A stretch of DNA of 64,000 nt from an uncultured Clostridia bacterium. GTDB taxonomy: Bacteria; Bacillota; Clostridia; Peptostreptococcales; Anaerovoracaceae. Both the position numbers and the translations under genes were made by a program. Every line of letters begins with the position of its first letter. The stretch's first letter is position 1. Below, piece by piece: positions 51,285 through 59,703 of the stretch. The stretch is from NCBI GenBank assembly GCA_947302715.1, contig CAMYVY010000005.1, positions 36,382 through 100,381 on the forward strand. The letters are read 5' to 3'. The notes beneath the pieces are model-generated. The model worked only from the letters and a program-made list of their open reading frames with translations, was not told the DNA's origin and did no database searches.

Positions 51285-52379
51285 TTATTGGCTGAAATTC
51301 CCAGGAGTCAAGTCCTCGGATAGTCTTAATCCCGAAGCTTTTTGATCTTTAAGTTCAAAGGTAGAGCCTTCCATCTTGTAAGCAATCTTTCCATTAATGA
51401 TGGTGACTTCAGGCTTAACCTGATCAAGTTCTTCAACGGGGATTCTTGATAAATCTCTATCGAGTATAAGGAAGGTTGCACTGTTACCGACTTTCAGCGT
51501 CCCGGCACCGTATAGTCCGGCATATTCAGCAGCCAACTTTGTATAGCCAATTACCATCGAATCGAGTCCATAAAATGGCTCTTCATCGGAATTGTTCCCT
51601 GCTGCGTTTTCATTCGCCTTCTCTATTTCCTCAATCAAATCCTCCTTGATGGATGAAAAAGGAACAAAGTCTCCGTCCCCTCTGTGGACTCTGGCGCATG
51701 GTACATCAAGATCCTCAAGCCAGCTGTCCTCTCTCATAAGGAGTTGTAGCATCGTTATGGAAGGATCATCATCGGAGATTTTGACGGAAAGCTGCAAGGA
51801 ATTCTTCTTGCAATAATCAAGCGCTTCCTTATACATCTCCTCTGTGGTATATTGTTCTCCCTTCAAGGATATCCCGGCAACATGAACCTTGCGGCTTCTT
51901 ATCATTCTCTGTTTGTCTGAAAGCACTTCAGGATTTGCCTTGATGAATTCCCAAGGATAATAGATTGAAAGCATCTGAGGGAATTCCTTGACTTTGATAT
52001 AGTTTTCATCCGCGCCTTCCGGTTCATGGCTCATGTCGTTTGGATTCAAATAGCCATAGAACATATCCTTGCCCCAGTATTCACCGGAAGCTGCAAGGCC
52101 CGTGATTCCGAGTTTTGCGAGTTCCTCTCCGTCAAAGAGGCCACTCCTTATATCCGCATCGACAAATCCGGGTATCACGGTGCGTCCTTTTAAATCGATA
52201 ACCTCGAACTCGGAAATTCTGGGATCATATAGTCCGGTGAGTCCAAGGTTTTCCATTAGTCCTTGAGTTGTACCTACATAATCGATTGCACCAAGAGATA
52301 CGGACATGGCCTCAGCATAAGGCATCTCCTCATTGCTGGTAAAAATCATTCCATTCACGTACAGAGTTTTAAAGATCAT
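51285..52379 (-). CDS. Degenerate YtcJ-like amidohydrolase-fold protein lacking HxH
   Basis: VNGMIFTSNEEMPYAEAMSVSLGAIDYVGT...GRTVIPGFVDADIRSGLF; C-terminal YTKLAAEYAGLYGAGTLKVGNSATFLILDRDLSRIPVEEL. Confidence 0.75.
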   Translation of the reverse strand: MIFKTLYVNGMIFTSNEEMPYAEAMSVSLGAIDYVGTTQGLMENLGLTGLYDPRISEFEVIDLKGRTVIPGFVDADIRSGLFDGEELAKLGITGLAASGEYWGKDMFYGYLNPNDMSHEPEGADENYIKVKEFPQMLSIYYPWEFIKANPEVLSDKQRMIRSRKVHVAGISLKGEQYTTEEMYKEALDYCKKNSLQLSVKISDDDPSITMLQLLMREDSWLEDLDVPCARVHRGDGDFVPFSSIKEDLIEEIEKANENAAGNNSDEEPFYGLDSMVIGYTKLAAEYAGLYGAGTLKVGNSATFLILDRDLSRIPVEELDQVKPEVTIINGKIAYKMEGSTFELKDQKASGLRLSEDLTPGNFSQ

Positions 52380-56051: not shown

Positions 56052-56185
56052 ATTGGAATTATAACATAGTTTTGGCCTAAATCTATATTATTTCTATAGC
56101 GTATCCACCAGATTTCTGTTATTATTTATCTATGAGTGAAGACAAGAAAACACATATTAATAGAGATAGATTATAGAAAGTGTGT

Positions 56186-56965
56186 ATGGAAGATAAAAAA
56201 ACAGTATGGCTTTACCGAGTAATCCGTTCTTTGGTAAAGTTCTTCACTCCTGAGTTCAAAATAGAAGGAAGCCACAATCTGCCTGATGAGGCCTGTGTAA
56301 TCGTAGGGAATCATAGCCAGATGTATGGTCCTATTGCATCCGAACTATATACGCCCGGAAAGCATTACATATGGTGCGCTGGCGAGATGATGCACAAGGA
56401 CGAAGTTGCAGATTATGCATTCCAGGATTTTTGGTCAAATAAGCCGCGGTCAAGCCGCTGTTTTTTTCGTATTCTGAGTCACTTGATTGCACCACTTTCT
56501 GAACTCATCTTTACCAATGCCCACACGATTCCCGTCTACCATGACAATCGTGCAATTGCAGCCTTCAAGGAGTCCATCGCTCTGCTTCGCGATGGAAATC
56601 ATGTGGTGGTATTTCCGGAGCAACACATTCCATACAACAATATCGTCTACGAGTTCCAAGAGCACTTTGTGGATTTGGCGCGTTTGTATTTCAGGAAGAC
56701 CAAGGAGACGCTTTCCTTTGTTCCTATGTACCTGGCACCTCGCCTAAAGACTATTTATTATGGCGCGCCGATAGTATTTCGTCCGGACTCGCCTATCGAC
56801 GAGGAGCGCAAGCGAATAAGCCAGGCGCTGATGGATGCGATTACGAGCATCGCAACTTCCCTGCCGGAGCATACGGTGGTTCCATATCAGAATATGCCGA
56901 AGAAGGACTATCCAAAGAACATACCGCTTACTGTCTATACTGCCGAGGGAGCGGAGATACAGTAA
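56186..56965 (+). CDS. PlsC/LPLAT-like acyltransferase family protein with atypical motif (NHSQMYG)
   Basis: EACVIVGNHSQMYGPIASELY, TIPVYHDNRAIAAFKESIALLRDGNHVVVFPEQ; overall LPLAT-like order of motifs. Confidence 0.7.
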   Translation: MEDKKTVWLYRVIRSLVKFFTPEFKIEGSHNLPDEACVIVGNHSQMYGPIASELYTPGKHYIWCAGEMMHKDEVADYAFQDFWSNKPRSSRCFFRILSHLIAPLSELIFTNAHTIPVYHDNRAIAAFKESIALLRDGNHVVVFPEQHIPYNNIVYEFQEHFVDLARLYFRKTKETLSFVPMYLAPRLKTIYYGAPIVFRPDSPIDEERKRISQALMDAITSIATSLPEHTVVPYQNMPKKDYPKNIPLTVYTAEGAEIQ

Positions 56966-56972
56966 TATATAG

Positions 56973-57024
56973 CAGTATTTAAGAACAGTATTTAAGAGCA
57001 GTATTTTAGAGCAATATTCAAGAG
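56973..57024 (+). repeat. 13-bp tandem repeat (CAGTATTTAAGAG), 4 copies
   Basis: Copies starting at 56973, 56986, 56999 and 57012. Confidence 0.85.
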
Positions 57025-57059
57025 TAATCGTCAAGATCAAGAGTTAGGAGTAATACAGA

Positions 57060-57923
57060 ATGGGAAGAAAATGGGGAGATAGAAAGGACGGGACGAAGCT
57101 GCGCAATATCGATTCCATGCACACGATTATGCCTCTGATGTATCCCAATCGTTGCGATAACGAGGCATTTATCGCCGAGCGAATCGATATCACAAACATC
57201 AATTCGTATCTGAAAAAAAAGAATTCAGATAATCCCGAATACCCGTATAATCTCTTTCAGGTGATATTGACGTCGCTTCTAAAGGTCATAACGCTTAGGC
57301 CCAAGATGAATCGCTTTATCGCCAACCAGACGATGTACCAAAGGAACGAAGTCTCTGCGGCGTTCACCGTGAAGAAGATCTTCTCCGACGATGGCGGTGA
57401 GGCACTTGCCTTCATACATTCAAAACCCGAGGATAACATAGATTCAATACACGACGAGATATTTCGCCAGGTATCCCTTTGTCGAAGCGATCAAAAGGAT
57501 CAATCTACCGCCAGCATGGACATGATACAAAAATTGCCGGGTCCGATTCTTAAATTCGTAGGCTGGGCGGCACGCGGGCTCGATCGCCGTGGCAAAATGC
57601 CTCAATCGATCATCGCGACTGATCCGTACTATGCCTCGGTGGTCATTACTAATCTCGGTTCTATCAAGCTCCATTCGGGATATCATCATCTGACCAATTG
57701 GGGAACGAACAGCGTATTCTGCGCCATCGGCGAAGTAAAAAAACGCAGATTTGACAATGAGGATGGCACGTTCGAAATGTGCGACAGCGTCGACCTGGGA
57801 CTCACCATCGACGAGCGAATCGCCGACGGCTATTATTATTCAAAGACGATTAAGCTCCTGAAACATATTCTGGAGAATCCGGACCTGCTTGACGGGCCTA
57901 TAAGTGAAAAGGTGGTATATTGA
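57060..57923 (+). CDS. 2-oxoacid dehydrogenase acyltransferase / CAT-like fold protein without lipoyl domain
   Basis: LRNIDSMHTIMPLMYPNRCDNEAFIAERIDITNINSYLKKKN...VVITNLGSIKLHSGYHHLTNWGTNSVFCAIGEVKKR...VDLGLTIDERIADGYYYSKTIKLL. Confidence 0.78.
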   Translation: MGRKWGDRKDGTKLRNIDSMHTIMPLMYPNRCDNEAFIAERIDITNINSYLKKKNSDNPEYPYNLFQVILTSLLKVITLRPKMNRFIANQTMYQRNEVSAAFTVKKIFSDDGGEALAFIHSKPEDNIDSIHDEIFRQVSLCRSDQKDQSTASMDMIQKLPGPILKFVGWAARGLDRRGKMPQSIIATDPYYASVVITNLGSIKLHSGYHHLTNWGTNSVFCAIGEVKKRRFDNEDGTFEMCDSVDLGLTIDERIADGYYYSKTIKLLKHILENPDLLDGPISEKVVY

Positions 57924-57924
57924 C

Positions 57925-59703
57925 ATGAATGAAAGTACAGTAAAAATGCCTTGGGCTAAGCATGTTGGCGATGTCCCATTGCATCTTGATTATTTTGAAG
58001 GTTCCATGTTCGACAAGGTGGTTCAGGTTGCTCAAAAGTATCCCCGAAATATCGCCTTTGACTTCATGGGGAAATCCACCACTTACAGAGAACTCGTATC
58101 ACAGACGGAAAAATGCGCCAAGGCCCTAAGGACCATCGGCGTGCGCGAGGGCGACAAGGTCACTATTGCCATGCCAAACTGTCCTCAGGCAATATATATG
58201 TTTTATGCGATTAATCTTATAGGTGGAATCGCCAACATGATTCATCCACTCTCTGCCGAGAAAGAAATTGAATTCTACTTGAACGAGAGTGAATCTGTAA
58301 CCGCGATTACTCTGGATCAGTTCTATAATAAGTTTGAATCCGTCCGAGAGAACACCAAAGTGGTTAATATAATAATCGCGTCCATCAAGGATGCTCTCTC
58401 CAAGCCTATCAAGGCTGGATACATGCTTACGGAAGGACTTAAAATTCAAAGAATCCCAAAGGACGCTCCCGTAATACGCTGGAAGGAATTCATCAAGTTA
58501 TCCGAGCATTGTTTCTATAAGTATAAGGTAGAACGTCAGTCGGATGATCCCGCAGTTATTCTTTATTCAGGCGGCACCACCGGGACCACTAAGGGCATTG
58601 TCCTTACCAACAAAAATTTCAATGCCCTTTCCCAACAGATTGTTGCATCCAATCCCATGTTCCGTCCCGGCGACAAAATGCTCTCAGCAATGCCTTTGTT
58701 CCATGGCTTCGGCTTGGGTGTATGTATCCATTCAATGCTGGCGGAGGGTGGTCGTTGCATACTGGTACCTCGTTTCACTGCCGAAAGCTATGCCAAACTC
58801 ATCACGAAATACAGCTGCAATTTCATAGCGGGTGTACCTACGCTATACGAGGCGCTTCTGCGACTACCGAGTATGGATGGAGCAAATCTTAGTTCTCTAA
58901 AGGGTGTCTTCTCCGGCGGTGACAGTTTATCGATAGAGCTGAAGAAGAAGCTCGACCGCTTCCTCTATGATCATCATGCGGTAATCCAGGTGCGCGAAGG
59001 TTATGGAACAACGGAAACGGTAACCGCATGCTGTTTGACTCCACCGAATAGATTCAAGGAAGGAAGCATCGGTGTTCCCTTCCCCGATACCTATATCAAA
59101 ATCGTACGCCCGGATACCGACGAGGAACTCCCCTATGGCGAAGAAGGTGAGATTTTGCTCGCAGGGCCTACAGTCATGAAGGAATACTTGGATAATCCCG
59201 AAGAGACCGAACAGGTTCTTAGGAAGCATGCCGATGGTTTGACCTGGGTGTATACCGGAGATCTTGGCTCGATGGATAACGAGGGGTTTGTATACTTCAA
59301 GGGACGCGCCAAGAGGATGATTGTCTCATCCGGATATAATATCTATCCTGCTCAAATCGAGAATATCCTGGATTCGCACGACAAGGTACAGATGAGCTGC
59401 GTAATCGGTGTTCCGGATTCATATAGAATGCAAAAGGTAAAGGCCTTCGTAAAACTGGCGGCAAACGTTCCTGCAAATGAATCGACCAGACAAGAGCTCC
59501 TTTCGTTCTGCAGCAAGCACATCGCAAAGTATGCTATGCCATACGACATCGAGTTCAGGGACGATCTCCCGAAGACACTCGTCGGAAAGGTAGCCTATCG
59601 CATGCTGGAGGAAGAGGAACTAGCAAAACTGAATGCTGCCGAAACATCAGACGTGGATGTTCCAGATGTTGCAGATATCGAAAAGGCAAATCCCGAAGAA
59701 TAA
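57925..59703 (+). CDS. AMP-binding acyl-CoA synthetase/ligase
   Basis: PAVILYSGGTTGTTKGIVLTNKNFNAL, EGYGTTETVTACC, YTGDLGSMDNEGFVYFKGRAKRMIVSSGYNIYPAQIE. Start at MNESTVKMPW. Confidence 0.93.
   Translation: MNESTVKMPWAKHVGDVPLHLDYFEGSMFDKVVQVAQKYPRNIAFDFMGKSTTYRELVSQTEKCAKALRTIGVREGDKVTIAMPNCPQAIYMFYAINLIGGIANMIHPLSAEKEIEFYLNESESVTAITLDQFYNKFESVRENTKVVNIIIASIKDALSKPIKAGYMLTEGLKIQRIPKDAPVIRWKEFIKLSEHCFYKYKVERQSDDPAVILYSGGTTGTTKGIVLTNKNFNALSQQIVASNPMFRPGDKMLSAMPLFHGFGLGVCIHSMLAEGGRCILVPRFTAESYAKLITKYSCNFIAGVPTLYEALLRLPSMDGANLSSLKGVFSGGDSLSIELKKKLDRFLYDHHAVIQVREGYGTTETVTACCLTPPNRFKEGSIGVPFPDTYIKIVRPDTDEELPYGEEGEILLAGPTVMKEYLDNPEETEQVLRKHADGLTWVYTGDLGSMDNEGFVYFKGRAKRMIVSSGYNIYPAQIENILDSHDKVQMSCVIGVPDSYRMQKVKAFVKLAANVPANESTRQELLSFCSKHIAKYAMPYDIEFRDDLPKTLVGKVAYRMLEEEELAKLNAAETSDVDVPDVADIEKANPEE

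Follow-up and report, generated by a model that had tools for sequence, protein, structure and literature searches.

The window, a 64,000-nucleotide stretch of DNA from an uncultured Clostridia bacterium, contains three co-directional plus-strand genes with minus-strand neighbors on both sides. The first open reading frame (56180..56965, 261 aa counted from a GTG codon) encodes a PlsC-like acyltransferase of the LPLAT type (Pfam accession PF01553), whose likely start is the ATG at 56186, where the initial annotation had also placed it. The second (57060..57923, 287 aa, likely start ATG 57060) encodes a CAT-like protein with the acyltransferase fold of the E2 enzymes (Pfam accession PF00198). 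The third (57904..59703) encodes an AMP-forming acyl-CoA ligase containing the AMP-binding (PF00501, 277 bits) and AMP-binding_C (PF13193) domains; its likely start is ATG 57925, just past the stop codon of the CAT-like gene and preceded by AAAAGGTGG. The best NCBIfam matches of the ligase were of the long-chain type. Additionally, the gap between the PlsC-like and CAT-like genes was found to hold a plus-strand array of a 13-bp repeat (56971..57024), with 4.2 copies of AGCAGTATTTAAG at 85% match.

The open reading frame coordinates and Pfam matches agreed with the initial annotation, which had described these genes as a PlsC-like protein, a CAT-like protein lacking a lipoyl domain, and an AMP-dependent acyl-CoA ligase with intact motifs. 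The ligase motifs YSGGTTGTTKG, YGTTE, GRAKRMIVSSG, and KTLVGKVAY were indeed intact, and the unusual motifs pointed out in the two transferase-like proteins, NHSQMYG and FPEQ in the former and DERIADG in the latter, were recovered in the translations. The neighborhood and its motifs are not due to chance, as they recur across dozens of genomes.

Distribution of the cassette genes among related loci

A scan of 84,980 genomes yielded 385 related stretches; the best 80, with 61-80% identity, were retained. These 80 loci came exclusively from Clostridia-type metagenome-assembled genomes or isolates, and the gut and rumen were the main sources. Among the best 80 loci, the ligase gene adjoined the CAT-like gene in 54 and a PlsC-like gene was present in 42, so that the conserved multi-gene lipid or acyl cassette suspected in the initial annotation was found to recur in dozens of genomes. 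The gap between the CAT-like and ligase genes was at most 84 bp in 53 of 55 cases, including the window. While the three genes listed in the initial annotation stood, a fourth member had been missed: a PAP2-type protein was encoded in 42 of the best 80 loci, and in 41 of these together with the PlsC-like protein. The commonest complete order was PlsC, PAP2, CAT, and ligase (15 of the best 80 loci). The PAP2-type protein conserved the motifs LRP, PSLH, and KQHSxxD, corresponding to the RP, PSxH, and HxxxD-type signatures, and its match to PF01569 was below the cut-off of that model.

Fusions were observed between successive members of this series. The PlsC-like and PAP2-type proteins were fused in one open reading frame in three loci (L022, L080, and L097), and in a fourth (L103) the PAP2-type and CAT-like proteins shared a single 503-aa frame immediately after the PlsC-like gene. 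Because both successive pairs, PlsC-PAP2 and PAP2-CAT, occur as fusions, the proteins are argued to act in one pathway, and by analogy the fused pairs would match successive steps of a Kennedy pathway. Owing to the fused frames, the PlsC-like and PAP2-type families were merged during clustering and were told apart by motif. Some loci were flanked by genes for VTT-domain, diacylglycerol-kinase, or CdsA-like proteins, and UppP-like genes were also present near some loci. Long minus-strand open reading frames that recurred over the cassette genes (clusters c3, c4, and c5) were rejected as antisense frames, by coordinates only.

In the window, the 13-bp repeat array occupies the exact place of the PAP2 gene in most relatives. 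No PAP2 remnant was detected in the gap between the PlsC-like and CAT-like genes, and no PAP2 protein of the cassette subfamily was found anywhere in the window's genome (91% complete), which encodes an unrelated PAP2 protein. As the nearest relatives of the window's PlsC-like protein (L024 and L038) both carry PAP2, the simplest reading is that PAP2 was lost in the window's lineage.

The CAT-like and ligase genes occurred alone in 28 of the best 80 loci. Of the corresponding genomes, for which completeness is unknown, 14 contained some PAP2 match elsewhere and 14 contained none. Hence, the PlsC-PAP2 portion is dispensable, while the CAT-like and ligase genes are the stable core of the cassette. 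These two genes were also adjacent in more distant relatives (L004-L010, L104, and L105). In Fusibacillus kribbianus, both genes were broken (L023:5184-5870): the PlsC-like gene was without its N-terminal half and the PAP2 gene showed large deletions and a frame change, with intact CAT-like and ligase genes beside them. In the tree of the CAT-like protein, loci with and without PlsC-PAP2 were intermingled in both halves.

Active sites of the two transferase-like proteins

The PlsC-like protein matched PF01553 with 26.2 bits against a cut-off of 23. Its NHSQMYG motif (residues 44-50) reads NHx4G where the family usually has NHx4D, and its FPEQ motif (residues 145-148) takes the place of the usual FPEG. 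Across 38 homologues, both His45, at the HX4D histidine position (codon 56312..56314, plus strand), and Glu147 of FPE (codon 56618..56620, plus strand) were invariant. The HX4D aspartate was absent from all 38 sequences, being replaced by Gly in 36 and by Ala in two. Additionally, the residue following FPE was variable among these homologues, and the family has lost GTRS, the portion of LPLAT motif III that binds phosphate.

An AlphaFold2 model of the PlsC-like protein (pLDDT 90, pTM 0.87) retrieved the Thermotoga maritima PlsC (5kym, E 5e-5, TM about 0.44) and PatA (5f2z) as its top Foldseek matches. The PatA residue H126 forms its pair with E200, and the HX4D aspartate of PatA has a structural role; the acidic partner in PatA, HtrB, and MsbB was located in block 3 (PMC4792965). 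Glu147 is proposed to act in a relay with His45, by analogy with E200 and H126, where the equivalence of Glu147 and E200 is our own reading of the motifs. Given that His45 and Glu147 are invariant and that PatA relies on an equivalent pair, the PlsC-like protein is probably active. With the loss of GTRS, its acceptor may be a molecule other than lysophosphatidate.

The CAT-like protein matched PF00198 (2-oxoacid_dh) above the cut-off with 32.9 bits, covering only the C-terminal portion of the model. A Pfam search of its 287 residues detected no lipoyl domain and no match to PF03007 (WS/DGAT). A single-sequence phmmer search with this protein returned only chance antibody matches, and profiles were used instead. 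The DERIADG motif (residues 251-257; 57810..57830, plus strand) includes Asp251, Glu252 at the position of the E2 histidine, Asp256, and Gly257, while the loop YHHLTNWGT contains the pair His209-His210 (codons 57684..57689, plus strand).

Conservation was assessed in an alignment of 117 CAT-like sequences, which combined the best 80 loci with more distant relatives from a whole-genome search and counted the window copies three times. Position 252 was Glu in 111 and Asp in six of these sequences, and the Glu of DERxxDG, whose conservation the initial annotation had proposed to test, is a fixed trait of the family. Asp251, Ser201, His209, His210, Gly215, Gly224, Gly257, and Tyr259 never varied among the 117, and Asp256 differed in one. 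The site aligned with Thr323 of E2o was Thr, Ser, or Ala, with Thr or Ser in 101 of the 117.

The window's genome also encodes a CAT-like paralogue (L002:901-2361; C22:5933-6769) that has a hydrophobic N-terminal half and the motif DEGICDG. With this paralogue and the acidic residue throughout the alignment, the replacement of the E2 histidine is, as judged from the sequences, an old and fixed family trait rather than a local decay. The paralogue adjoins a threonine-aldolase-like gene (named by eye) and is found in most genomes of the same genus. Among other CAT-like genes, those of L106, L107, and L108 occurred in tandem pairs with a DDRxADG motif, which has Asp at the histidine position. A distant match (L014:1525-2334), located beside a ligase gene of 33% identity, contained four stop codons within the aligned stretch, for which decay or frame errors are possible causes.

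The AlphaFold2 monomer of the CAT-like protein (pLDDT 85, pTM 0.86) retrieved E2 cores first in Foldseek (7q5r, E 5.9e-15; also 3mae and 1b5s). Residues 208-214, which form the loop of the histidine pair, had a pLDDT below 50. As E2 active sites sit between trimer subunits (PMC5986005), this loop is not placeable by a monomer model, and His209 and His210 may complete the active site. In the Escherichia coli E2o, the substitutions Asp374Ala and His375Ala each retained about 2% of activity, while His375Trp retained about 60%, and an acid-base role of the histidine was doubted by the authors (PMC5986005). Since E2o tolerates some changes of His375 and Asp374 matters about as much, the loss of the histidine would not by itself mean that the CAT-like protein is inactive. 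With the remaining E2 frame kept and His209-His210 gained in the CAT-like protein, and His45 and Glu147 kept in the PlsC-like protein, both look like active enzymes rather than scaffolds.

Genomic context and comparison with known systems

A conventional E2 was not found in the window's genome, while PlsY (PF02660) was present; the cassette thus belongs to no dehydrogenase complex and is not the sole lipid route. In a set of 61 related genomes that included the window's own, a full-strength match to the window's PlsC-like protein was found in the window's genome only, and a close match to the CAT-like protein was found in just one other member of the genus. Together with the presence of PlsY, this distribution indicates that the cassette is accessory. 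PF03007 was not found in the window's genome by a search without a positive control, so that an absence of WS/DGAT was not demonstrated. The PF02660 search also revealed an apparent tandem PlsY fusion, with two matches in one 506-aa frame (C1:76026-77453).

The cassette proteins resemble members of several known systems. The CAT-like protein shares with E2 enzymes (PF00198) the fold, the C-terminal D-x-R-x-x-D-G motif, and the common Thr or Ser at the Thr323 site. In contrast to them, it has no lipoyl or subunit-binding domain, carries Glu or Asp in place of His, contains an invariant inserted HH loop, and is linked to ligase, PlsC, and PAP2 genes rather than to E1 and E3. Similarly, the PlsC-like protein has the LPLAT fold (PF01553), the NH and FPE motifs, and the His-Glu pair of PatA, whereas it differs from PlsC and PatA in consistently lacking the HX4D aspartate and GTRS after FPE. 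The order of PlsC, phosphatase, and a third acyl transfer within the CAT superfamily possibly recalls a Kennedy pathway with WS/DGAT; however, WS/DGAT has the motif HHxxxDG, while the cassette encodes an E2-type single-domain protein with DERxxDG. The co-occurrence of a PlsC-like protein with an AMP-forming ligase is shared with the Aas-type acyltransferase and acyl-ACP synthetase (PRK08633), although the cassette genes are separate and have E2-fold and PAP2 partners, and the NCBIfam model was matched far below its cut-off.

Proposed function and alternatives

The best explanation, which we hold with little more than even confidence, is a cassette of active enzymes for acyl-CoA-dependent lipid acylation. 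From the observed gene set, fusions, folds, and invariant residues, we infer the reactions, their direction, the acceptor, and the product as follows. The ligase would convert a free fatty acid into acyl-CoA, and the PlsC-like enzyme would acylate a lysophosphatidate-like acceptor with His45 and Glu147 as its relay in place of HX4D. Where relatives have the PAP2-type membrane phosphatase, it would then strip the phosphate from this product. The E2-fold protein probably forms a trimer whose active sites lie at the subunit interfaces and include Asp251, Glu252, Asp256, and at least one of His209 and His210; it would move an acyl group from acyl-CoA to a hydroxyl of the resulting lipid. The cassette would thus carry out acyl-CoA-dependent glycerolipid acylation, possibly, in the most specific version, as a Kennedy-like series of PlsC, PAP2, and a third acyltransferase, and with diacylglycerol as the acceptor, the route would end in triacylglycerol. 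Active lipid O-acylation in general is modestly favored, whereas triacylglycerol as the specific product is rather unlikely.

The fusions and the PAP2 partner provide the strongest support for lipid acylation, and the VTT-domain, diacylglycerol-kinase, and CdsA-like genes beside some loci also speak for it. Against it, the window's own copy has no PAP2, and E2 enzymes normally pass acyl groups between thiols and not to alcohols. Its main weakness is that the CAT-ligase pair persists without PlsC-PAP2, which leaves a role in thiol transfer or salvage. The pair would in that case make acyl-CoA and move the acyl group to a thiol, such as that of the acyl carrier protein, with PlsC-PAP2 as an optional user. 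Such a fatty-acid salvage is consistent with the known thiol-to-thiol chemistry of the E2 fold (PMC5986005), with the CAT-ligase pair being the most stable unit in both the best 80 loci and the more distant relatives, and with its survival beside the broken genes of F. kribbianus. It was nevertheless considered improbable, as the PAP2-CAT fusion argues for a lipid as the substrate, the E2 histidine is substituted in all CAT-like sequences, and no acyl carrier protein gene was recognized as a recurring neighbor of the loci.

A comparably low probability was given to an active lipid acyltransferase set that uses a glycolipid, a lipoteichoic acid precursor, or a polyprenyl carrier instead of diacylglycerol. 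The loss of GTRS from the PlsC-like family, the structural match to PatA, which acylates a sugar lipid, and the UppP-like and VTT genes near some loci, some of which handle undecaprenyl phosphate, all argue for such an acceptor, but among the neighboring families that were identified, no glycosyltransferase or wall-polymer gene recurred next to the cassette. The substitution of the canonical HX4D and HxxxDG residues had led the initial annotation to consider a non-catalytic scaffold, a role that could fall to one or both of the transferase-like proteins. A parallel from pyruvate dehydrogenase complexes is protein X, the E3-binding protein, which has an E2 fold without the catalytic histidine; protein X, however, belongs to a dehydrogenase complex that is absent from the window's genome, where no partner E2 was found either. 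The scaffold reading is highly improbable, since the substitution in the CAT-like protein is always acidic, other catalytic residues of the E2 frame are kept, and an invariant histidine pair is gained, while the PlsC-like protein retains a relay with a precedent in PatA.

A search of the open-licence literature found no paper on the gene set, consistent with the initial annotation of an undescribed system, although this does not prove that no description exists; on clostridial triacylglycerol, it returned general or mammalian work only. No NCBIfam model named the cassette subfamilies. The cassette is conserved in gut and rumen Clostridia and apparently undescribed, and its most likely role is to activate fatty acids and join them to membrane-type lipids. 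For lipid synthesis, Clostridia normally draw on acyl-phosphate and acyl carrier protein. If the proposed lipid acylation is true, gut and rumen Clostridia would own a dedicated acyl-CoA route that captures free fatty acids, and the CAT-like protein would be a clear example from nature in which the E2/CAT fold uses an acidic residue for its hallmark histidine. A more doubtful proposal is that storage or detoxification lipids, for example triacylglycerol, are produced in anaerobic gut Clostridia through an acyl-CoA-dependent Kennedy-like pathway, with an E2-fold protein bearing a Glu and a relocated histidine pair as the last enzyme. Lipid droplets were observed in gut bacteria in situ, and two actinobacterial isolates were shown to contain triacylglycerol (PMC10019568); with a clostridial enzyme set, lipid storage by gut bacteria would become testable.

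Elsewhere in the window, an amidohydrolase-like protein (PF07969) is encoded on the minus strand (51285-52379), flanked by MtnA-like and QueT genes. Inspection by eye showed PGFVDADIRSG in place of the metal-binding HxH usual for the family, and the protein may be inactive.
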